49,341 nucleotides of DNA from IMG/VR virus record IMGVR_UViG_3300046477_000271, positions 1 through 49,341 of that record; one strand, given 5' to 3'. The DNA comes from a virus. The notes under the pieces are model-generated. The model ran no database searches. It was given only the letters and a program-made list of their open reading frames with translations, and had not been told where the DNA came from. The translations under genes and the position numbers were made by a program. Every line of letters starts with the position of its first letter. The stretch's first letter is position 1. This document shows, piece by piece, positions 360 to 35,830 of the stretch.

Positions 360-944
360 ATGGGATCGTTTACGGATGAGCAGCGCGCGAAGGGCCGGGC
401 GACTATGCGCAGCCGCGCGAAGATGAAGAACCGCGAGGAGAAGATGCAGCAGGATATCTTCGAGGCTCGGGAGAGGGGCTTGAGCATCCCCGAGGTGGCC
501 AAAGAGTGCCACACGAATGAGAAGAACGTGCGGAAGACATTGTTCAACGGGGTCCATAAGGCCGAACGGGTCGCGCGATTTAACGAGGCAATGGTCAGCA
601 TGAGTCCGGCGGGAATCAAGGTGGTCAGGGAATGGCTGGATAAGGGCGACAAGGACGTAGCGATGTGGCTCCTGAAGGAGACGGGAGTCGTGGGCAAAGA
701 ACAGGTGAATATCACCGTCAACGCACAAAACGCCCAGGTCAACCTTTCGAATGACACGCTAGAGGCGGCGAGGGCGGTGGTGGAACAGATGCGAATGGCG
801 AATGGGCCGAAGCAGTTGCAGCAGGCAGCAGATGACATTATGGGTGAAATCGTATCGACCGAGGAGGTTGAGGATGAGCAGTCCAGAGACGACGTGGGGC
901 AGCCCGAGAGTGACATCGACAGCAACGGGGGGACTGATGTTTAA
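360..944 (+). CDS. putative terminase small subunit (TerS)
   Basis: The 194-residue protein has a basic N-terminus (about 1-25), a predicted helix-turn-helix around residues 38-60 (a helix, the turn at GLSIPEVAKE, then NEKNVRKTL), a central helical part (70-110) and an acidic low-complexity C-terminus. Size, HTH-then-helical architecture and position ahead of the large terminase fit a small terminase, which recognises the packaging site and activates TerL. No sequence search was possible, so the assignment rests on architecture and gene order. The last eight bases overlap the start of the next gene. Confidence 0.6.
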   Translation: MGSFTDEQRAKGRATMRSRAKMKNREEKMQQDIFEARERGLSIPEVAKECHTNEKNVRKTLFNGVHKAERVARFNEAMVSMSPAGIKVVREWLDKGDKDVAMWLLKETGVVGKEQVNITVNAQNAQVNLSNDTLEAARAVVEQMRMANGPKQLQQAADDIMGEIVSTEEVEDEQSRDDVGQPESDIDSNGGTDV

Positions 945-1416
945 TAACGGAGTGTCTAATGTAATACCTACCCCTGTTGAGTCAACTTGGTTCGAAGTCG
1001 GCGAGGTGGGATTCGCCGCGTCGGGTGATCGCCTCGTGATTGAGGAGGATCAGTTCAAGAGTGGGTACGAGTGTAAGGAGTGCGGAGGATCGGGCCGGGT
1101 GGCCTCGACCGTCGCGGGCGGTAAGATCAAGACTTGCCCTGAGTGTAACGGGAAGGGTGGGATCATCGTCGTCCCCGAGGTGTCGCAAAGGCGCCCGACC
1201 ACCGGAATCGTCCGGTCGGCTGGAGAGCAGTGTAAAGTTTACAAGGTCGGGGATGGAGTGCTGTTCTCAAACTTCGCGGGTTTTGCGATCGATCTCCAGC
1301 GGGCGGGCCAGCCGGTATGCCTCCGCATTCTCCACGAAACCGAGGTGCTGACCAAAGTGCGCGGACACCTCGAACTGCGAGCGATATCGTCGCAACGTGA
1401 GGCAACGGGGATATGA
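937..1416 (+). CDS. GroES-like co-chaperonin with embedded DnaJ-type zinc module
   Basis: Residues 29-36 (SGDRLVIEE) match the first strand of GroES. Residues 90-118 (GIVRSAG, then KVGDGVLFSNFAG) match its GEVLAVG and VGD-VIF strands, and the C-terminus matches the closing strands. Between strand one and the GGIIVVPE segment, the place of the GroES mobile loop, lie two CxxCxGxG knuckles (Cys46/49 and Cys67/70) like those of DnaJ. GroES proteins cap GroEL during folding, and phage versions (T4 gp31 class) help fold capsid protein. The gene lies in the packaging block before TerL. I start it at ATG 937, after a G-rich Shine-Dalgarno-like run, because the upstream part of the frame is a shadow of TerS. 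Confidence 0.72.
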   Translation: MFNNGVSNVIPTPVESTWFEVGEVGFAASGDRLVIEEDQFKSGYECKECGGSGRVASTVAGGKIKTCPECNGKGGIIVVPEVSQRRPTTGIVRSAGEQCKVYKVGDGVLFSNFAGFAIDLQRAGQPVCLRILHETEVLTKVRGHLELRAISSQREATGI

Positions 1417-2518: not shown

Positions 2519-2890
2519 ATGGACAAACTTACCAAATCCCAAGCTGTCTACTTCGGCCCGCTCGATGTCGGCGGACCCGACCTTGGCACCCGATGCGGGA
2601 AGTGCCGCGACTACATCGCCCTATCGCGCGAGTGCATGATCGTCACCCCTCCTAACGTCAGCGCTGCCCGAGGCACCTGCGCGCTCTATGTCCACGGCCA
2701 GTCGGTCGGAGCGGGTCGGTCGAAGATGCTCCTGTTGAAGGAGACAGCGGGATATATCGAGGGGGCGGACGTTCCCACCTATTGTGGACGATGTGAATAT
2801 TACGGGGGCGGCCAGTACAACGGCCCTTGCGAAAAGGTCGAGGGAGATGTCGAGTATCGCGGGTGCTGCAATCTCTATGAGGCCGAATGA
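2519..2890 (+). CDS. cysteine-rich protein with two HiPIP-like four-Cys units
   Basis: The 123-residue protein carries two similar units. Each has CxxC, then a third Cys about ten residues on, then a fourth Cys followed by an aromatic residue (CALY in the first, CCNLY in the second). The spacing and terminal Cys-x-x-Tyr resemble the cluster-binding part of high-potential iron-sulfur proteins, and phages often carry such small proteins. A structural zinc site is the main alternative. The frame is open further upstream, but ATG 2519 follows the previous stop by one base. The gene ends inside the TerL start (ATGA). Confidence 0.65.
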   Translation: MDKLTKSQAVYFGPLDVGGPDLGTRCGKCRDYIALSRECMIVTPPNVSAARGTCALYVHGQSVGAGRSKMLLLKETAGYIEGADVPTYCGRCEYYGGGQYNGPCEKVEGDVEYRGCCNLYEAE

Positions 2891-4563
2891 CCATCAATAC
2901 CCAGCGGTGGGAGATCCTCCAGCTCATCGGCAATCCCCGCCTCGATCCCCACATCATCAAGCTCAATGCGCTGGGATCGTTATACTACTTCGCAAAGTTT
3001 GTACTACAGCGTGGTAGGTTGACCGAACACCTCCATAAGCCGATTTGCGAAAACCTGGAGCGCCAGCGCCTCAACTATCTATTGGAGTTGCCACGCGACC
3101 ACTTCAAGACAACAATGATGACCGAGGCGTTGCCGATCTGGTGGTCCTTGCCCTTCACCGATAATGATGAGGCGGCGATGCGCGAGCTGGGATATGGGGA
3201 TGAGTGGATTAGGTGGATGAAGTTTGCACACAATCCGTTAATCAGAATCCTAATCGTATCGGAGGCGGCACTCAATGCTGAAAAACTCGGGATGCGTATC
3301 GACCAACATTTCTATAACAACGGACGGTTTCGAGATTTATTCCCAGAAATCATCCCTAATGAGAAATCAACTTGGAACGCTTCCAGTAAGTGCATTGGAG
3401 GAAGTAAGTTCCGCCCTCATGGAGAAGGCACTTTTGATTTCATCGGCGTTGGGGGCGCGTTACAAAGTCGTCATTACGATAGGATGATCGAAGATGACCT
3501 CGTGGGGAAGGACGCACTCCGCAGCGAGATCATCATGGCCGACACGATCGAATATCACAAACTTCTGGAGGGAGCGTTCGATGGACCGGATCATACGGAA
3601 CTTGTTGTTGGTAACAGGTGGAGTCCCACCGATCTTAACGGCTGGATACGTGAGAACGAGCCAGAATTTGTGGTGGAGTCTCACTCTGCCCTTGGCGGTT
3701 GTTGCGATATGCACGAGCCTGGTAAGCCGATTCTCCCCGAAGAGTTCGACATCGCCCGACTAGAAAAAATCAGGCGCCGCCAAGGGGCATACCTCTTCAG
3801 CCACCAATACCTCAACGAGGCGTTGAGCGCCGAGGATGTAGTGTTCAAACCCGAATGGCTCCGCTACTACAAACCCAAACCTGAGCCATTCATGCAGAAG
3901 CTCGTGATGGAGGGGGAGATCAAGCAGATCGAAGCGAACCGGATGCTGCTCGAACATGAGGTCGTGAAGGGGACCACCTACTCGGACATCCCCGTCAACC
4001 GACTCGTCCGATCGATGACGGTTGACCCGAATCATTCGGGGAGCGAGGGCCGCGCCCGCCATGCGATTGTGGTGACTGGACTCGACCCCGACACGGACCA
4101 GATATACTTGCTCGACATCTGGGCGCAATCCATGCCCTACGACGACCTCACCAAACATATCTACTCAATGTGTGAGCGGTGGAAGCTGACCGAGTTCTGG
4201 CTCGAAACCGTCGCCGCCCAGAAATACCTAAAGTATCATCTGGAGTATCGCAACAAGATCGAGAACCGTAACTTGAGGTGCCGCGAACTCAAGACCGATC
4301 GGGGCAAGCATGGCAAGTGGACCCGGATCGACGCGCTCTCCCCTCTCTTCGAGCAGGGGAAAGTATTCATCCGCCGCGATCAATCCGCCTTTATCACCGA
4401 ATACACCCGCTACTCGCATAGCGCGCGGCAGGTGGTGGACGTGCTGGACGCCTTCTCGTACGCGCCCCAAACCTGGTCAAATTATCGGTTCAAGGAAATC
4501 GCGGCGATGAAAGAGGAGCGCAAGAACCGGATGGGCAAACGATCGAGAGCGACGGGGTATTGA
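2887..4563 (+). CDS. terL: terminase large subunit (TerL)
   Basis: This is the DNA-packaging motor, which couples ATP hydrolysis to translocation and cuts concatemers. The ATPase domain has a Walker A-type loop LPRDHFKTT (residues 68-76; the usual Gly before Lys is Phe, as in many phage terminases). It has a Walker B RMIEDD (199-204). The C-terminal RNase H-like nuclease has Asp380 (VDPNHSG), Glu440 and Asp521 (VLDAF) as likely metal ligands. At 558 residues it is the usual length. The ATG overlaps the stop of the cysteine-rich gene, so both are probably co-translated. Confidence 0.92.
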   Translation: MTINTQRWEILQLIGNPRLDPHIIKLNALGSLYYFAKFVLQRGRLTEHLHKPICENLERQRLNYLLELPRDHFKTTMMTEALPIWWSLPFTDNDEAAMRELGYGDEWIRWMKFAHNPLIRILIVSEAALNAEKLGMRIDQHFYNNGRFRDLFPEIIPNEKSTWNASSKCIGGSKFRPHGEGTFDFIGVGGALQSRHYDRMIEDDLVGKDALRSEIIMADTIEYHKLLEGAFDGPDHTELVVGNRWSPTDLNGWIRENEPEFVVESHSALGGCCDMHEPGKPILPEEFDIARLEKIRRRQGAYLFSHQYLNEALSAEDVVFKPEWLRYYKPKPEPFMQKLVMEGEIKQIEANRMLLEHEVVKGTTYSDIPVNRLVRSMTVDPNHSGSEGRARHAIVVTGLDPDTDQIYLLDIWAQSMPYDDLTKHIYSMCERWKLTEFWLETVAAQKYLKYHLEYRNKIENRNLRCRELKTDRGKHGKWTRIDALSPLFEQGKVFIRRDQSAFITEYTRYSHSARQVVDVLDAFSYAPQTWSNYRFKEIAAMKEERKNRMGKRSRATGY

Positions 4564-4856: not shown

Positions 4857-5100
4857 TTTCACCACCCCGACTCTCATCGATGGCACCTCGGTCAACTTCG
4901 AAGTCACCGCCGTCAACGCAGCCGGCGAATCGGTCGCCTCGGCAATCGTCAGCGCGGTCGTTCCGGCAACCGGCACCCATACCGCCACGATCAGTTGGAC
5001 CCCGGCGGCAACGGGCAGCGCAGCCACCAGCTTCAACATCTACGATCAAGTTGTGACAATCCCAAACCAACCGGGTGCGGTCACAGTAACAATTAACTAA
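4708..5100 (+). CDS. secreted protein with a fibronectin-III-like domain
   Basis: The 130-residue product has a signal peptide or anchor (about residues 5-32, ending WAQA). A beta-rich domain follows, with the VxAVNAAGESxxS pattern of fibronectin type III modules. Such domains on phage proteins often bind surfaces or carbohydrate; here that is inference. ATG 4708 is preferred over GTG 4702 because GTGGAG lies seven bases upstream. The gene is placed between terminase and portal. Confidence 0.6.
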   Translation: MTARISRIISITIFASLIFYLTLGNPFKLWAQATTGFTKIGTVAAGGTNSFTTPTLIDGTSVNFEVTAVNAAGESVASAIVSAVVPATGTHTATISWTPAATGSAATSFNIYDQVVTIPNQPGAVTVTIN

Positions 5101-5119: not shown

Positions 5120-7123
5120 ATGGCAGAAGACTTCCAACTCGTCGATTGTAATCTCGGCAAGGACACCGACGCCGAGATGACGTTATTTGTGGACGGTCAG
5201 ATTGAGTTCTTAACCCAATCTCATTCTGACCTCCATAAAAACAAGATTCCCCAGTGGCGCAAACTCTATCTTGGCATCCCTGGCGAGGAAACGAAGTCCT
5301 TCCCGTGGCCGAATGCTGCCAACACCATCGTCCAGGTTATCGGCGAGACAACCGACACCCTCGCGGCCAGAATACTAGGGCTGGCATATGCAACTCATCC
5401 GTTGTGGCCCTTCCAAGACTACCGAAAGTTCGACCCCGCCGACACCCTGAACTTTGAACACGCCTCGAAGGAACGCCGGACGCTCGAAGACTTCCTAGAC
5501 ATCATGGGATTCGAACCCTCTGAACTCGACCTCTACCGCATCGAGGGGCTGTGGTGTACGGATATGATTCGGCTTGGGACGAGTTTCCTCAAGCTAGGGT
5601 ATGAGCATAAGATCGAAACAACAAACGTCGGCTACACCTCGGCAAGATCGAAGGTGATCCAAGGTGATGAAACAACTATCTATTCAGGGCCTCGGGTGCA
5701 TAAGCTGCGGCATGAAGACGTTTTCCTTACGCCTGATGCGTCTACACCGGGGGAAGCGGAGTTTGTATTTCAAGTGCGTACGCTGCGCCGGAAAGCGCTT
5801 GAAGAACGAGCCTTCACTGGAGCCTACAGCAAAGCCGCCGTCGATGCCATCCTCGACTCCCCCGACCGAAACGGCCCGAAGCCTCAGGAGAAATCAGAAC
5901 TCCAAGACCAAGGAATCGTAGAACGGGGTAACTACGATGCCAATGCCCAATGGGACATCGCCGAGTGCTACTATTCGTGGTGGCACAACAAACGAAAGTT
6001 TCGTATCATTGACTCCTACCACAAGCGCACCAAGACGGTCTTGCGGAGGGTATTCAACTTCCTCCCTCAGAATGAACTGCCCATTCTGCGGGCAAGGATG
6101 GGGTATCGAACGGACGGGATGTACGGGCATGGTGTTGCAGAGTTGTTGGAACGATATCAAGAAGAACTCTCAACGGTCCACAATCAACGCCTCGACAACG
6201 CGACCGCAGCGAACACTCGCGCTCTACGTGTTAGTCCGCGCGCTCGAAACCTTGACGCTAATGTCGAACTATATCCGATGGCTCTCCTCGTGGGTGAGAA
6301 GGATGACATCGAGGCGATCCAGATCGCGGACGTATACCCCTCATCGTTCGAGAACGAGAATGTCACTCTAGCTCACGCACAGTCGCGGGCGGGCATCAGC
6401 CCGGCGATAGCTGGCAGCGGGGGCGGGGGGCCACAGAAAAAGACGGGATCGTATTCGAGCGCCGGCACCCTCGCCACGATGCAAGAGTCCAACAGCCGGG
6501 TCAACCTCGACGCATCGGACTTCCGCCACGCTCATGTCAAGCTCGGCTCGTTGCTCACGGCGATGTACGCCAAGTACGGAGTCGGCGACCGCGCCAAAAT
6601 GTTCGGCCTCGACGCGGATATCCTCAAGTCCGCGCTGAAGGAGTTCGACAAGAATCGTCTCGCCATCCCGATCCGCGCCAGCACCGCCTCGCTCAATCGG
6701 GAGATGGATAAGCAATCTGACATGCTCTTGGCGGGATTGCTCCAACGCCACTACACCGCCGTTGGCCAGCTCATGCAAGCCATGTCCTCGCCAATGATCC
6801 AACCCGAAGTCAAAGACTACATGGTCAAGACCGTCCGATCATTAGACCGATTTATCAAACGGGTGATGAAGGATTTCCAATATGACCAACCAGAACAATA
6901 CGTCCCCGAGCCAAAACTCCCAGACTTCTCAGAAGGTCAAGGTGGAAAAAATCCGCCGTCTCCTCCGGGAGGGCAAATGGCCCCCTCCCCTTCATCCATT
7001 CAATCAACTGCTGCGGCTACCCCCGGTCGAGGTCCAGCAAATGTTCCTGCTCCCGGCGTGGCGGGCGTGGGAGGCGGGACTCCGCCGCCTGTTGGAACTG
7101 GCGGAGGCGGACCTCAAGTATGA
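5120..7123 (+). CDS. portal protein
   Basis: The 667-residue protein forms the head-vertex ring through which DNA passes. It has the FPWPNAANT segment followed by a helix (residues 55-80), seen in podovirus-type portals. A large mixed core and a long helical stem (about 430-610) follow. The C-terminal Pro/Gly-rich tail (from about 620) is disordered. Position directly after TerL and ahead of the scaffold supports the call. The tail is encoded in DNA that also encodes a second frame (6882-7394). No strong Shine-Dalgarno is visible upstream of the ATG. Confidence 0.85.
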   Translation: MAEDFQLVDCNLGKDTDAEMTLFVDGQIEFLTQSHSDLHKNKIPQWRKLYLGIPGEETKSFPWPNAANTIVQVIGETTDTLAARILGLAYATHPLWPFQDYRKFDPADTLNFEHASKERRTLEDFLDIMGFEPSELDLYRIEGLWCTDMIRLGTSFLKLGYEHKIETTNVGYTSARSKVIQGDETTIYSGPRVHKLRHEDVFLTPDASTPGEAEFVFQVRTLRRKALEERAFTGAYSKAAVDAILDSPDRNGPKPQEKSELQDQGIVERGNYDANAQWDIAECYYSWWHNKRKFRIIDSYHKRTKTVLRRVFNFLPQNELPILRARMGYRTDGMYGHGVAELLERYQEELSTVHNQRLDNATAANTRALRVSPRARNLDANVELYPMALLVGEKDDIEAIQIADVYPSSFENENVTLAHAQSRAGISPAIAGSGGGGPQKKTGSYSSAGTLATMQESNSRVNLDASDFRHAHVKLGSLLTAMYAKYGVGDRAKMFGLDADILKSALKEFDKNRLAIPIRASTASLNREMDKQSDMLLAGLLQRHYTAVGQLMQAMSSPMIQPEVKDYMVKTVRSLDRFIKRVMKDFQYDQPEQYVPEPKLPDFSEGQGGKNPPSPPGGQMAPSPSSIQSTAAATPGRGPANVPAPGVAGVGGGTPPPVGTGGGGPQV

Positions 7124-9422: not shown

Positions 9423-10043
9423 ATGTCGATTTCAGCTCAACCAATCGTGCCGGTGCAGACAATCTCTGGCAATCAGTTCAACGCCAACCGCTACACCGAA
9501 GAGGCGTCGATCACAGCCCTCTACGGCACCCCCACTCAGATCGCATCGGGCGATGGTGGATGGCAGGCGTGGGCTGGAACCGCCGCGACCAACTCCGGCA
9601 CCTTTATCAGCGGTATCACTTACGAGGCGTTCCACAATTACGGCGCCCTCGGCGTGGCCCCCCTACCTTATCAACCAGTCGTATCGGTTGGCTCCACGAT
9701 CACTTTCGGCAGCGTCCAAAATCAAGCGAGCGCGGTCAACATCCCGATGGGCGCGCCCTTCACGGATGGCCGGATCGGCGTCTGGCTCCCGACCCGTGAC
9801 ACGGTTTTCAGCGCGGTCTTCGGGAATAACGGCAACACCGCCACTCCCGCGATCACCGACATCGGCCTCAACTATGGCCTGACGATCGATTCGAACTCGA
9901 AATACTGGTATATCGACAAGAATAAAACGAGTACAAATGCGGTCGTAACGATTGTGGGACTGGACCCACGTGAAACACCCGCCGCAGGAACAAATGTCTT
10001 GTTTACCTTTATTCCTGCTGCCGTCACTGTCGCTGGAGCATAA
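9423..10043 (+). CDS. putative head decoration or minor structural protein
   Basis: The 206-residue protein is rich in Gly, Thr, Ala and Ser with alternating beta strands. A C-terminal beta domain carries an LNYGLTIDSNSKYWYIDKNK block. GAGAGG lies ten bases upstream. It is adjacent to the capsid gene, separated from it only by the endonuclease at 10045. A capsid decoration or spike-like role is an inference from position and composition. The last 100 bases become AT-richer towards the endonuclease. Confidence 0.6.
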   Translation: MSISAQPIVPVQTISGNQFNANRYTEEASITALYGTPTQIASGDGGWQAWAGTAATNSGTFISGITYEAFHNYGALGVAPLPYQPVVSVGSTITFGSVQNQASAVNIPMGAPFTDGRIGVWLPTRDTVFSAVFGNNGNTATPAITDIGLNYGLTIDSNSKYWYIDKNKTSTNAVVTIVGLDPRETPAAGTNVLFTFIPAAVTVAGA

Positions 10044-10044
10044 A

Positions 10045-10503
10045 GTGATTGATGAGTCAAAAATAACGCCTGAATGGCTCGCTGGGTTCTTTGATGGCGA
10101 AGGTTGTGTCTGCTTGCAAATGAGCAGGAACGCAATGCACCTTCGCATCAATATCACCCAAGCTGATGAGGAACTTCTCAAAGCCATTGAGATCAAATAC
10201 GGTGCCAGCTACATGTACCCGAAGCCGCGTAAGAATCAAGATGGTCAGGTGTATGAGGTAGGTTGGACAGGCCGTAATTGCAAGGCGATTATTGAAGTAT
10301 TGGATGGTCGAGTCGTAAAGAAACAATCTCAAATTGATTTGGCTCTTCAGTTTTTAGCAACGATGGTCGGGCAGGGTAATCGACTGACTGACGAACAAGT
10401 TTCTGAACGTGAATCTCTTAGACAGCAAATGCGTGACTTGAATCATGCAGGACCGTTCAAGCCTCGACCATATATTGCTGAGTCAAAAGGAGTTACGATA
10501 TGA
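10045..10503 (+). CDS. LAGLIDADG homing endonuclease, free-standing
   Basis: Residues 8-20 read TPEWLAGFFDGEG, a classic LAGLIDADG helix with its catalytic acidic residue, followed by a beta-alpha domain (RINITQADEELL). At about 152 residues with one motif it should act as a homodimer. These enzymes cut a long DNA site and spread their own gene by repair. I choose GTG 10045, preceded by GGAG and placed two bases after the upstream stop. The rest of the upstream frame is shadow. The gene is AT-richer than its neighbours and ends inside the capsid start (ATATGATG). Confidence 0.85.
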   Translation: MIDESKITPEWLAGFFDGEGCVCLQMSRNAMHLRINITQADEELLKAIEIKYGASYMYPKPRKNQDGQVYEVGWTGRNCKAIIEVLDGRVVKKQSQIDLALQFLATMVGQGNRLTDEQVSERESLRQQMRDLNHAGPFKPRPYIAESKGVTI

Positions 10504-11450
10504 TGGTACGCGGGACATTCGCCCAGACATTAGCACCGGGCGTCCACCATTGGTTCGTGGAATTTTTGGACCTCCAGATGCGGAAGGAGGAGTACTCGAC
10601 GATCTTCAACATTGAGAACTCCACCCAGGCATACGAGGACGAAGTGGTCATGGCAGGGACCGGGCCGATGCCCGAAAAGCCCGAAGCCAGCCAGGTGATA
10701 TACGATGACCTGGTACAGGGCGGAACCCGCCGGTACGTCCACCTCAGCTACGCGCTCGGCTCCCGCGCCTCGTGGGAACTGATCGAGGACGACCAGTATG
10801 GACTCATCAAACAAGTTCCGAAGTCTCACGCTCGGTCGGCTATGTTCATCCGCGAACAGGTTGCGTTCAACGTCCTGAACCTTGGGTTCAGCACGCTGAC
10901 GACCGCCGACGGCGTTTCCCTCTTTAACACCCAGCACCCATTGCTGGGCGGCACGCAGGCGACGAACATCGCGCCGGGCGTCTCGAACGTCATCTTCGCT
11001 TCGGGCACCTACCCGAACCGCCCCAGCCCGGACCTCGACCTGTCCTTCACCGCCATCCAGGTGATGATCAATCAGTTCGAACGTATGCCGGATAGCCAGG
11101 GTATCCCGATCCGCTGCAAGCCCTCGACCATCCTGATCCCACCCGAACTCAAATTTACCGCGCGCGAGATCCTCGGATCTCCGGGCAAGCCCTACACCGC
11201 CAACAACGAACTCAACTCGCTCCTCGGTGAAGACCTGAAGTTTCAAGTCTGCCACTACCTGACCAGCCAATCGGCCTGGTACGCGGTGCCGGACAAGGAA
11301 ATGCACCAACTGAAATTCTTCGATCGCCACCCGATTGATGCCGACTACGATGATGACTTCGACACGCGCTCGACGAAGATCATCACCTTCCAGCGCTTCA
11401 GCGCTGGTGCGACCTCATGGCAGGCAACGTGGGGATCGAACGGACCATAA
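10500..11450 (+). CDS. major capsid protein
   Basis: The 316-residue protein has features of the HK97 or Mu gpT-like major head family. It has an N-terminal helical part, a central DGVSLFNTQHPLLGG segment, a long P-domain-like helix region and a C-terminal beta segment. Copy-number logic fits: AAAAGGAG upstream, GC-rich codons, and a position after the scaffold. The protein forms the icosahedral shell. The ATG overlaps the LAGLIDADG stop, so the ribosome-binding site lies inside the mobile gene. Confidence 0.85.
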   Translation: MMVRGTFAQTLAPGVHHWFVEFLDLQMRKEEYSTIFNIENSTQAYEDEVVMAGTGPMPEKPEASQVIYDDLVQGGTRRYVHLSYALGSRASWELIEDDQYGLIKQVPKSHARSAMFIREQVAFNVLNLGFSTLTTADGVSLFNTQHPLLGGTQATNIAPGVSNVIFASGTYPNRPSPDLDLSFTAIQVMINQFERMPDSQGIPIRCKPSTILIPPELKFTAREILGSPGKPYTANNELNSLLGEDLKFQVCHYLTSQSAWYAVPDKEMHQLKFFDRHPIDADYDDDFDTRSTKIITFQRFSAGATSWQATWGSNGP

Positions 11451-27269: not shown

Positions 27270-27476
27270 GTGCTCAGTCGGCAACAAGCTCGCCTCCATG
27301 CGCGCGCGAAGGCTAAGAGAGTGTCCACCCCCTTCACTCATCGGCTAACGCGCGCGTCCCTCCGCCTCATTCAACGCGAGCTAGTCCGGCGAAACTGGCG
27401 AACGGTCCAACATGAAAATTCTCTTGGCGAGTCCGAACGGCGACGGCCCATGGGTAGCTCTGTACCTTCTGCATGA
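27270..27476 (+). CDS. Arg-rich small protein, doubtful
   Basis: The 68-residue frame starts at GTG one base after the previous stop and overlaps the ATP-grasp gene by 65 bases. Residues 1-45 are strongly basic and helical, and the C-terminus is probably shadow. It fills an otherwise empty 143-bp gap, but there is no independent support. Confidence 0.35.
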   Translation: MLSRQQARLHARAKAKRVSTPFTHRLTRASLRLIQRELVRRNWRTVQHENSLGESERRRPMGSSVPSA

Positions 27477-28686
27477 AGGTCATGATGTAGCGTGGATCGC
27501 CAAGCACCAGCGCGACAAGGATTCCCTCCGTGGCCTCCTTCCTCCTCCCATCGAAACGATAGGCAATCCCTCCGATTATGACCTAGTGGTGTATGACTTC
27601 TGTGCTGATGGCAAGGGTGCGGACGAGATCCGATCGCTCACCCCAGTCATAGGGTCGAGCGAGTTCTCGGACCAACTCGAACACGACCGCACCTTCGGGA
27701 TTAAGTTTATGGAAGAGTGCGGCATCCCGGTCCCCCCATACGAAACATTCACCGATGTCGGGGATGCGATCGCCTGGCTCAACGAGACAAAGAAACGTTG
27801 CGTATTCAAGCCAAGCGGCGATGTGCAGGACAAAGCCACCACATACGTGTCCAAATCGAGTGAGGACATGATAAAGTATTTAGAGGTGTTGCAGAAGCGG
27901 GCGAAGATTTCTGAGTTCCTCCTGCAAGAGTTTATCGAGGGAACGGAGGTATCAACCGATGGATGGTTTAACGGCACCACGTTCTGCGCTGTCGCACACA
28001 CTCTCGAAGAGAAAAAATTCCTCAGCGGTGGAGTTGGCCCCAATACTGGTTGTTCAGGAAATCTCGTGTGGATGCCAAGTGGCGTTAATCCTCTGTTCGA
28101 GCGAGGATTGCGTCGGGCTGAGGCATGTCTGCAACGAGCTGGCTTCGTCGGGCCAATTGACCTCAACACCATCGTGACCGAAGGCGAGGTCTACGGACTT
28201 GAGTGGACCCCTCGCTTCGGATACGAAGGAACCTGTAACGTCATGGCCCTGATGCCCGTCAACTTCGGCGAGTTCATGCACCAGATCGCCACCTCCTCGA
28301 CCATCGCGCCAATCATCCCCAAGGCCGCGTTCGCCGCCACGATTCGCGTCACCGTTCCCCCCTACCCTACCCAGATCAAGAATGCGAGCAAGTTTGCGGG
28401 CGTCCCCATCGAGGGCATCAATCTTGACAAACTCGATCGATTCTTCCTCTCTGACGTGCGCGTTAAGGAGGGCACCGAGGATGAGCTGGAGACAGGAGGG
28501 GTGGATGGATTAATTGGAGCGCCAATTGGCTTAGGTGATACAATTCATGGAGCGTTTGGAGAATGTCAGGCAATTATTGATGAACTCAAAATCCCTGACA
28601 TGATGTATCGAAATGACATTGAAAAATGTGTCGAGAATCGCTACGAACTTTTGAGAAAGCAAGGTTGGTTACGGAGATTAGGATGA
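27412..28686 (+). CDS. ATP-grasp ligase related to PurD
   Basis: The 424-residue protein matches the plan of phosphoribosylamine-glycine ligase. It has an N-terminal Rossmann-like part (1-100) and an ATP-grasp core with KPSGDVQDKA (about 139-148) and LQEFIEGTEVSTDGWF (about 173-188). GPNTGCSGNLVW and GLEWTPRFGYEG (metal-binding Glu and Arg) follow, and a C-terminal PurD-like domain ends with MMYRNDIEK. ATP-grasp enzymes join a carboxylate to an amine. Whether this one makes purine precursor or modifies a phage product is unknown, as no other pur gene is near. The acidic ligand motif has Thr where most ATP-grasp proteins have Asn. Confidence 0.8.
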   Translation: MKILLASPNGDGPWVALYLLHEGHDVAWIAKHQRDKDSLRGLLPPPIETIGNPSDYDLVVYDFCADGKGADEIRSLTPVIGSSEFSDQLEHDRTFGIKFMEECGIPVPPYETFTDVGDAIAWLNETKKRCVFKPSGDVQDKATTYVSKSSEDMIKYLEVLQKRAKISEFLLQEFIEGTEVSTDGWFNGTTFCAVAHTLEEKKFLSGGVGPNTGCSGNLVWMPSGVNPLFERGLRRAEACLQRAGFVGPIDLNTIVTEGEVYGLEWTPRFGYEGTCNVMALMPVNFGEFMHQIATSSTIAPIIPKAAFAATIRVTVPPYPTQIKNASKFAGVPIEGINLDKLDRFFLSDVRVKEGTEDELETGGVDGLIGAPIGLGDTIHGAFGECQAIIDELKIPDMMYRNDIEKCVENRYELLRKQGWLRRLG

Positions 28687-33199: not shown

Positions 33200-33443
33200 G
33201 CCATCCCTTTCCCATGCTCAAGTTGAATTGTTCCAGACCAATCGCCCGATAAGCCGCGCGTAGGGGATTTTTTCGTTGCATCATCCGCTCACGGGAGTAA
33301 CGCAAATAATTCTCCTTCGTCCATTTCCGCTGATGACATGCTTTTATCACAGGCTGTGCATTAAAACACCGACAACAACGATAATCGTTGATTTTCAACC
33401 TTGACGCCATTACCGGACGTTCGTTGCAGATTCGGCATATCAC
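33180..33443 (-). CDS. small zinc-ribbon protein coupled to the polymerase
   Basis: From GTG 33443, overlapping the polymerase stop (GTGA), the 87-residue protein reads CRIC (residues 3-6) and CCRC (about 23-26), then a basic helical tail rich in Arg/Lys/Tyr. This is a small treble clef or zinc ribbon with a nucleic-acid-binding tail. It might be a polymerase partner or a reduced endonuclease. The longer upstream frame is antisense-like shadow of the polymerase. Confidence 0.55.
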   Translation of the reverse strand: MICRICNERPVMASRLKINDYRCCRCFNAQPVIKACHQRKWTKENYLRYSRERMMQRKNPLRAAYRAIGLEQFNLSMGKGWRGQTKG

Positions 33444-35830
33444 CCGACCGTTCGCATCTCCGCCAGATTCGGCCCGATCTTGCACTCCGCGCCGATCGCC
33501 AGTCCCCCTAGCAACGGGTGGGGCATCTGCATCACCTCTAGCAGTTTGTGGGCAGCCCACTCCCCTTGCTCGACCGGAACCTCGAGGATGATTGAGTCGT
33601 GTACGATCCACCTTAGCCATTTCAATAGAGTATCGCTGAAGGTGTTGGAAATTTCAAGCAAAAAATCCGTCTGAATCGCGCTGGCGGTAGCCTGGGGCCG
33701 GAACGCCACGCACCTCTTGGCATCATCCCCCATCACCCATTGCCCATTCGAGTAATGGAACACGTCGTAAAAATAGTGCCGATACTTCCAGGGAATCTCC
33801 AGATAACGCTCCTTATGCGCCTGTTCGAGCGTCTGTTGCTGCCATTTCCTCACGTCTTGGCCGGCGGGAGTCGAAAAATAAAACTTCTGCAACTCCCTCG
33901 CGGTTTTTAGCGAAGCAAATGTATCAGGATACTCCTCGACAATCCGTTGTGGAGTGCCCATGTAATTGCTAAGGTGTACCACCCGCTTAATCTGGTCGTA
34001 AAGTGGCTCATCTTTGCTCACTTTCCGCCCAGCGTATTCGCTGGCAAGCCATTTATGAACTCCTGACTTGGCGAGGTTGATATATCGTTCGGAACCTGCA
34101 TAAAAGCCCACAAGAACCGCTTCGATCGCACTGCTGTCCGACTCCACCAATATATTTCCGGGCGCTGCGATAACCATTCGCCTAAACTCTTGCGCCAGAT
34201 CATTCCGCTTAGGTACGGTTTGCACGTTTGGATCACGAGCACTCTTGCGCCAAGTCGAAGGATGAAAACTGAATGTTGTGTGTACACGTCCGTCCTCCTT
34301 GCAATCCCACATATAAGCGTCTATTAACTTGGCCCGCTCCCGGTAGTCGAGGATCGTTCGGAAGATCGGGTTCTTCTTAACTAACTTTTTGAGGTGCTTC
34401 GCTTCGGTCGATTCCTTGTCGGCACCTTTGGCATGGGGCATCTTGAGTCCAAGGTGCAGGATGAGATTCTTAACTTGTAAAGAACTTCCGGGGTTAAAAT
34501 GTAGAGTCTTTTGCCAAACTCCAGCACCTCCCAACTCTCCTCTAACTTCAACCACTCCAGTAAGGTCTTTAGGCGCGCGCTTGTAAATCTTTTTGGGCTT
34601 AACTTCGTCCGGGACTTGCGCCTGCAACTTTTCGAGTGCTTCGTCACGTTCAGCCTCCAGCCTTGACTTAAACTTTGATTGGTGGTCGAGGTCAAGCATC
34701 ACCCCCGCCTCCGACATCCTCACGAGGATCGGGAACGTATCCATGCAATGCCGCTCGAACGCCTGCCACCTCCCCTCGCTCTCAAGTTGGGCGCGGATGC
34801 CGAGGTAGGTGTCCATTGTGATCGCGCTGTCAAGAGCAGAATAACGCGCCGGAGCTGCGCTTGAGAGCATTTTCCATGGCTCAAGGCAGGTAAAGAGGGG
34901 CGCCACGAACCCTAACGCTTTGGGGAGATCGCTTTGAAGGAAATGCCACGCAAACATAGCATCGACCACTTTTCCATTAATAGTGACTCCGTTCGCCAGA
35001 AGTCTCGGAAGATCAAACGCCTGATTCCAAAATATGACTTCCCCAGCCTGATCCAGCACTCGCCGGGCCAAATCAATATATGGGGGTTGCCAGGGTAAGG
35101 AGATTGCCGTCCCTTGACGATTAGAAAACGAAATTCGAACAATCGTATAACTCGCGTCTTCCCGCTCATCCTCATCCTCCTCCCCCTTATCGGGTGTTGG
35201 TGTTTCGATGTCGCACACAAGTGGATCATGGCCCGCGCAAAAGTATGCCTCGGCCTCGGCGAGCGAACAATCCATCCACAGGTTGTAATCCTTCGGCTTC
35301 TCATCCCTTTGCGCTACATCCAATGCCCTCTTCACAGCGTAGCACCAAAGCCCACTCAACTTTTGCTGGCCCCGCTGGATGAACGAGGGATGGAAAGTGG
35401 GGATGGCTGGGATCCCGTAAGCGGTGGGGATGTAGTAAGCGTTATGCTTCTCGATCCCGGTCATGCCCGTGATCCGCCTGAGCGCGGTGTTGCCCATCGG
35501 GACTATCGCCTTCGGCTGCATCCTCGCAATGAGGTCGTCAAGGTAAGGCCGACATTGCTCCTGTGCGAGGCCGACCTCTGGCCCCTTCCCCTCGGCCCAT
35601 CCGGGAAAAGGTGCCCGGCACCAGAACGAGTTGGCGATCGTAAACTGCTCGCGGCTCGCTCCGATCCTTCGGAGCTGGCGGTCGATGAAATAGGAGGTGG
35701 AGGAGGTGAACACGCTATCGATGTCGCCCAGGAGCATCACCTTGTTCGTCCCGTTCCCCGTGTGGGGGATGAACTGTTGCCCCTTTTCTTCCATCGGGCA
35801 GCCCCGGCAATTTGATCCCTGGACGGTCAC
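33440..35830 (-). CDS. UDG-like/3'-5' exonuclease/family A DNA polymerase fusion
   Basis: The 796-residue enzyme has three parts. Residues 1-175 resemble family 4 uracil-DNA glycosylase, with four cysteines for an iron-sulfur cluster (8, 11, 71, 93) and HPS (147-149); the usual GEAPG catalytic loop is replaced by GDIDS. Residues 200-345 form a DnaQ-like exonuclease (DIE at 207-209, NQAFD at 269-273, YxxxD at 330-334). Residues 360-796 form the family A polymerase, with motif A Asp565 (SDSSAIE), motif B around 612-626 and motif C HDS (744-746). It is the replicative polymerase candidate. The start is GTG after GGGAGA. Confidence 0.9.
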   Translation of the reverse strand: MTVQGSNCRGCPMEEKGQQFIPHTGNGTNKVMLLGDIDSVFTSSTSYFIDRQLRRIGASREQFTIANSFWCRAPFPGWAEGKGPEVGLAQEQCRPYLDDLIARMQPKAIVPMGNTALRRITGMTGIEKHNAYYIPTAYGIPAIPTFHPSFIQRGQQKLSGLWCYAVKRALDVAQRDEKPKDYNLWMDCSLAEAEAYFCAGHDPLVCDIETPTPDKGEEDEDEREDASYTIVRISFSNRQGTAISLPWQPPYIDLARRVLDQAGEVIFWNQAFDLPRLLANGVTINGKVVDAMFAWHFLQSDLPKALGFVAPLFTCLEPWKMLSSAAPARYSALDSAITMDTYLGIRAQLESEGRWQAFERHCMDTFPILVRMSEAGVMLDLDHQSKFKSRLEAERDEALEKLQAQVPDEVKPKKIYKRAPKDLTGVVEVRGELGGAGVWQKTLHFNPGSSLQVKNLILHLGLKMPHAKGADKESTEAKHLKKLVKKNPIFRTILDYRERAKLIDAYMWDCKEDGRVHTTFSFHPSTWRKSARDPNVQTVPKRNDLAQEFRRMVIAAPGNILVESDSSAIEAVLVGFYAGSERYINLAKSGVHKWLASEYAGRKVSKDEPLYDQIKRVVHLSNYMGTPQRIVEEYPDTFASLKTARELQKFYFSTPAGQDVRKWQQQTLEQAHKERYLEIPWKYRHYFYDVFHYSNGQWVMGDDAKRCVAFRPQATASAIQTDFLLEISNTFSDTLLKWLRWIVHDSIILEVPVEQGEWAAHKLLEVMQMPHPLLGGLAIGAECKIGPNLAEMRTVG

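Follow-up and report, generated by a model that had tools for sequence, protein, structure and literature searches.

To our knowledge, the mobile loops of known co-chaperonins of the GroES type are short and plain. The loop sets the affinity and specificity for GroEL, with its length and order tuning the affinity. In GroES, the residues IVL of this loop contact helices H and I of GroEL (PMC3514286). Among the closest described phage systems is gp31 of T4, which is essential for the folding of the T4 capsid protein and competes with GroES for GroEL; its loop is only longer and flexible, with 22 residues compared to 16 in GroES (PMC6318259). Helicobacter pylori HspA is a GroES with an added metal-binding part, in this case a C-terminal nickel-binding His-rich tail (PMC5116745, PMC8779794).

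A second set of chaperones is characterized by zinc modules that, in the DnaJ type, contain four CxxCxGxG knuckles. The zinc centres of DnaJ pair knuckles 1 and 4, and 2 and 3. Centre I is reported to be essential for binding substrates and centre II essential for interacting with DnaK, and the CxxC motifs can be redox active (PMC4428491). The zinc modules of both DnaJ and plant BSD2 bind client proteins (PMC4428491; PMC5859369), and BSD2 is an example of a zinc hairpin that stands alone and is able to hold a protein during its assembly (PMC5859369).

Here, we analyze a window of 49,341 nucleotides, by which we mean the whole stretch of DNA studied. As the window is a virus record (IMG/VR), the GroES-like co-chaperonin found in it is phage-encoded. 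An earlier note, made from the DNA letters, had described a GroES-like protein with two DnaJ-type zinc knuckles in the position of the mobile loop. The gene and the parts of its product are as follows.

937..1416, + strand: gene for the zinc-bearing GroES-like co-chaperonin, an open frame from ATG to stop (159 aa) with Cpn10 over the Pfam cut-off and a family of 48 members
1000..1050, + strand: N-terminal barrel strands, residues 22–38 (GEVGFAASGDRLVIEED), matching GroES IRPLHDRVIVKRK when aligned with zinc-less relatives and E. coli GroES
1072..1158, + strand: zinc module in the mobile loop, residues 46–74, with two knuckles, from the alignment and the similarity to DnaJ/BSD2
1072..1095, + strand: knuckle 1, CKECGGSG, residues 46–53, with Cys46 and Cys49 kept in 48/48 members
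1135..1158, + strand: CPECNGKG, residues 67–74, corresponding to knuckle 4 of four-knuckle relatives, with Cys67 and Cys70 kept in 47/48 members
1165..1173, + strand: hydrophobic I77-V78-V79, equivalent of GroES I25-V26-L27, from the alignment and the hydrophobicity in members
1195..1359, + strand: C-terminal part of the Cpn10 barrel, residues 87–141, from profile matches to GroES chains and a model with pLDDT 88–96 for residues 91–140
1225..1248, + strand: site at which the GroES roof hairpin is absent, with 8 residues (97–104), from the alignment with GroES

The first 8 bases of the gene are also the last 8 of the preceding gene. In Pfam, residues 69–122 of the protein match Cpn10 (E=8e-5, 23.0 bits; cut-off 21.1) and residues 44–77 match DnaJ_CXXCXGXG (PF00684; E=4e-5, below its cut-off). 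The protein also has a weak match to phrog_931 'head morphogenesis'. No J domain was matched by Pfam in the protein or in the rest of the window's record, and of the four CxxCxGxG knuckles of a DnaJ-type zinc module the protein has two. These are located at Cys46/49 and Cys67/70 with GGIIVVPE directly after the second, exactly as first described. Since an identical protein is found in three other IMG/VR records, an assembly slip is unlikely; an assembly deletion of knuckles 2 and 3 is likewise unlikely, the same form occurring in records from different samples. A chance or misread frame is ruled out by these three records, the conserved family, and the dN/dS values given below.

By profile and by fold, the window protein is a GroES/Cpn10 barrel. 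In its AlphaFold2 model, a monomer based on the family alignment, the barrel blocks have pLDDT values of 88–96 and the zinc region 65–73, with predicted strands at residues 18–21, 24–27, and 32–37; in the monomer model of a four-knuckle relative (L012), the zinc region, residues 61–100, is at 87–91. Foldseek with the window model places Cpn10/GroES structures on top, with T4 gp31 (1g31) at rank 7 (probability 1.00), and with the L012 model also returns BSD2 (6ekb, probability 1.00) and DnaJA2. Over whole chains, TM-scores are modest and rmsd values high, because the insert and the tails fall outside the alignment. GroES folds of the alcohol-dehydrogenase type come only further down the Foldseek ranking (E>0.03) and were rejected. 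When the family profile is compared with PDB sequences, one part matches GroES chains and the other BSD2 and DnaJ. The proposed GroES-like fold is thus supported by Pfam, PDB profile matches, AlphaFold2, and Foldseek, and the likeness of the knuckles to DnaJ/BSD2 by profile and Foldseek.

The barrel and an IVL-like stretch in the mobile loop are common to the family and cellular GroES/Cpn10 (PF00166), from which the family differs by the zinc module in that loop, the lack of a roof hairpin, and a C-terminal tail; sequence identity of the window protein to cellular GroES is low. With gp31, the family shares a phage-encoded Cpn10 fold, a mobile loop with a hydrophobic stretch, and the absence of roof loops (for gp31, PMC6318259), but gp31 has no zinc module and negligible sequence similarity to the family. 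CxxCxGxG knuckles and a predicted zinc hairpin are shared with the DnaJ cysteine-rich domain (PF00684, 1exk) and BSD2 (6ekb). However, the family has neither the J domain nor the substrate-binding barrels of DnaJ, its knuckles are usually spaced 11/about 17/11 rather than about 17/22/14, and the module, of about 30–70 residues, sits inside a Cpn10 and has only two knuckles in the window. HspA also combines GroES with a metal-binding part, but at the C-terminus and with histidines, whereas here a cysteine module lies inside the mobile loop.

Relatives were found through a search with the large terminase, followed by alignments of the co-chaperonin, terminase, and portal proteins; a search with the co-chaperonin protein itself is biased towards zinc-bearing members, whereas those based on terminase and portal are not. 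Most of the related phages from the terminase search with enough upstream sequence hold a co-chaperonin relative. In a set of 32 phage records, each with a related terminase, portal, or co-chaperonin, the Pfam model finds Cpn10 in 30 and the family profile matches all 32, one of them (G031, locus L058) by the zinc part only; L058, with only a 70-aa CxxC-repeat protein, was left out of the family count. Seven related-terminase records (G018, G019, G023, G025–G028) encode a Cpn10 without any CxxC, and the five of these that were scanned against Pfam are all over the cut-off.

Because these seven phages have the same Cpn10 without zinc, the insertion site can be fixed. Their mobile loops read like DEFKYSGRIVVPETAKRKPTKG, and that of the window protein reads DQFKSGYEC...CNGKGGIIVVPEVSQRRPTTG. 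In the alignment with the zinc-less relatives and E. coli GroES (reference sequence identical to PDB 1aon), the module is found in the mobile loop, on its N-terminal arm, immediately preceding the counterparts of I25-V26-L27. The position claimed in the earlier note is thereby borne out: the protein has the GroES beta-barrel and its knuckles fall within the mobile loop, the reverse of the two outcomes that the note had named as contrary to its claim. The GGIVL-like stretch is still present, which makes the module an addition to the docking loop and not a substitute for it. Since seven related phages manage without zinc, the module is not needed for basic function.

The site suggests one way of reading the module, namely that the protein acts as a co-chaperonin with host GroEL and the zinc module serves docking itself. 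It could do so by pre-ordering the otherwise disordered mobile loop or by touching the apical domain of GroEL at a second point, which would let the phage lid outcompete host GroES or fit the particular GroEL of its host. The module is directly beside the GroEL-contact residues, which stay conserved, and an effect of loop length and order on GroEL affinity is established, but the tripeptide is also the same in related phages that have no module. Taken by itself we consider this reading rather unlikely, although it is nearly as good as one in which the module contacts the client.

We recovered 48 distinct full-length members, all from uncultured phages, of which 44 have four CxxC motifs, two have two (the window and L047/L201, which are one contig), and two have six (L051 and L055). 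The two-knuckle module had thus been seen correctly in the earlier note, but it is a reduced form, most relatives having four knuckles. The cysteines of knuckles 2 and 3 are present in 46–47 of the 48 alignment rows, with the second knuckle of L047 being ambiguous between the third and fourth positions, and those of knuckles 1 and 4 are the best kept of the family. Conservation of both cysteine pairs nearly throughout the 48 members is more than chance would give. The equivalents of I77, V78, and V79 are hydrophobic in 48, 41, and 43 members, respectively. The co-chaperonin gene is under purifying selection, with dN/dS of 0.05–0.24 in nine pairs of relatives excluding the window (rough values, several with high dS); comparisons of the window with its nearest relatives are saturated at synonymous sites.

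Such cysteines could also form a redox or metal sensor, in which oxidation or zinc loss would unfold the hairpin and switch docking on or off. The redox activity possible for DnaJ CxxC motifs speaks for this; against it, the gene context contains no pointer to redox control, and zinc hairpins like those of DnaJ and BSD2 are mostly structural or client-binding. We consider a sensor very improbable.

At the place of the roof hairpin, 46 of the 48 members have 7–9 residues. The other two, L051 and L055, have 40–41 residues with an extra knuckle pair; this second two-knuckle pair at the GroES roof-hairpin position is encoded within L051:2947-3768 and L055:5049-5729. By GroES geometry, it would be far from GroEL, which counts against a docking role for the module and is a better fit to client contact.

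The terminase tree gives an outline of the history of the module. The zinc-less form is a single clade (SH-aLRT 100), the two-knuckle form arose twice independently, and the six-CxxC form is found on three separate branches (L051, L055, and L156/G024), in the last of which all six CxxC lie within the mobile loop. As the closest relatives of the window carry four knuckles, its protein is most simply explained as a reduced form that has lost knuckles 2 and 3 and kept 1 and 4. The distant members G021 and G022 likewise keep knuckles 1 and 4, with the middle ones altered. The tree is unrooted, so the direction at its base, zinc gain or loss, is not readable from it, and the terminase and co-chaperonin genes may have recombined.

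The surroundings of the gene in the window include the following.

360..944, + strand: preceding gene, a candidate small terminase, whose match to a sigma-70 region 4-like helix-turn-helix is weak (Pfam, below cut-off)
2887..4563, + strand: terminase large subunit, TerL (phrog_38, E=3e-61)
5120..7123, + strand: portal protein (SU10_portal over cut-off)
10500..11450, + strand: major capsid protein, Mu gpT-like (phrog_371, Mu-like_gpT), a candidate client

In 31/33 loci, the co-chaperonin gene is upstream of both terminase and portal and shares their strand, so its place beside packaging genes holds across the family. The count includes the window, where TerL and portal are just beyond the short locus L004. 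The exceptions are L020, where the gene is on the other strand, and L054, a stretch without a terminase match. In L020, which belongs to the most divergent terminase branch, the zinc co-chaperonin (9802-10671, − strand) is downstream of and opposite to TerL. The contig of L054 (G009) has a J-domain match over the Pfam cut-off at 4922-5047, in a phage with a zinc co-chaperonin.

Tight linkage to TerL and portal, together with the low identity to cellular GroES and the weak phrog_931 match, could point to another use of the GroES fold, as a ring-shaped head or packaging factor that works without GroEL and whose zinc hairpin binds DNA or terminase. This is improbable in our view, as the GroEL-contact stretch is conserved, the I77 equivalent being hydrophobic in every member, and some members are located elsewhere, as in L020.

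Several other genes of these phages were observed. Between co-chaperonin and TerL, the window encodes a cysteine-rich protein of about 122 aa without a Pfam match (2522-2890), which is conserved in L012, L013, L018, L027, L028, and L038. The terminase genes at L018:1784-4237 and L021:6995-9448 contain inserts of about 250 aa that are in frame and weakly match intein/Hint domains. Further along the window are an ATP-grasp protein (27412-28686; GARS_A over cut-off) and a DNA polymerase of family A whose N-terminal part contains a uracil-DNA-glycosylase-like domain (33440-35830, − strand). GroEL (PF00118) was found in 0/32 phage records, most of them possibly incomplete, and in 14/14 control genomes.

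Our tentatively preferred reading, at somewhat below an even chance as a whole, is that of a gp31-type co-chaperonin that would cap host GroEL for phage proteins, probably head proteins, with the zinc hairpin contacting the client. Action together with host GroEL is probable. Copies would assemble into a ring, presumably a heptamer, that caps host GroEL through I77-V78-V79 in place of host GroES, and the capped GroEL would fold phage proteins, most likely head proteins encoded nearby. In T4, gp31 serves the folding of the capsid protein with host GroEL (PMC6318259), and by analogy we infer a role in head-protein folding for the family. Lacking the roof loop, the dome would be open, as in gp31. 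The module, inserted in the docking loop on its N-terminal arm, would form a hairpin held by zinc, binding of the metal being suggested by cysteine conservation and the similarity to BSD2 and DnaJ; several such hairpins would then ring the chamber mouth. Client proteins are bound by the zinc hairpins of DnaJ and BSD2, so here too the hairpin would most likely touch the non-native client, and client contact is possibly, though by no means securely, its main role. The site formed by knuckles 1 and 4 in the window protein is presumably zinc centre I by DnaJ numbering, and its retention would fit client contact without a DnaK partner.

A search of 50,697 phage records by tblastn with three members gave no true member. 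The matches were of two kinds: plain GroES-like pieces in phages of Bacteroides and Acinetobacter, and proteins with CxxC repeats in huge phages. At L023:2059-3486 (LR745206) and L024:1834-3525 (LR756504), in records of about 635 kb, there are proteins with at least 10 CxxC repeats, many of them CxxCxGxG, and no Cpn10 part. When 84,980 species of bacteria and archaea were scanned by pattern, an approach that may miss distant members, no match with a Cpn10 part was convincing; only DnaJ and other CxxC-repeat proteins were returned. In neither the isolate phages nor the bacterial genomes searched was the combination seen. In the open literature searched, which includes only a minority of subscription journals, no listed paper presents a zinc-bearing GroES mobile loop in its title or abstract. 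As far as can be seen, the parts are known, and their combination and its place are apparently undescribed.

These phages thus contain a widespread natural family in which a zinc hairpin is spliced into the GroEL-docking loop, and the window protein, with knuckles 1 and 4 only, is a natural minimal form of the DnaJ-type zinc hairpin. With zero, two, four, and six knuckles, the proteins of related phages form a ready-made series in which the functions of the loop and of the chamber mouth could be tested, as could the ways in which phages adapt the host chaperonin to proteins of their own. A bolder and more doubtful possibility is that the protein is an Hsp10–Hsp40 chimera, a viral lid for GroEL whose DnaJ-type zinc hairpins, arranged in a ring at the chamber mouth, hold the client; in two lineages, the roof would bear another set. 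If true, this would join client capture and capping in one protein dedicated to phage head proteins.
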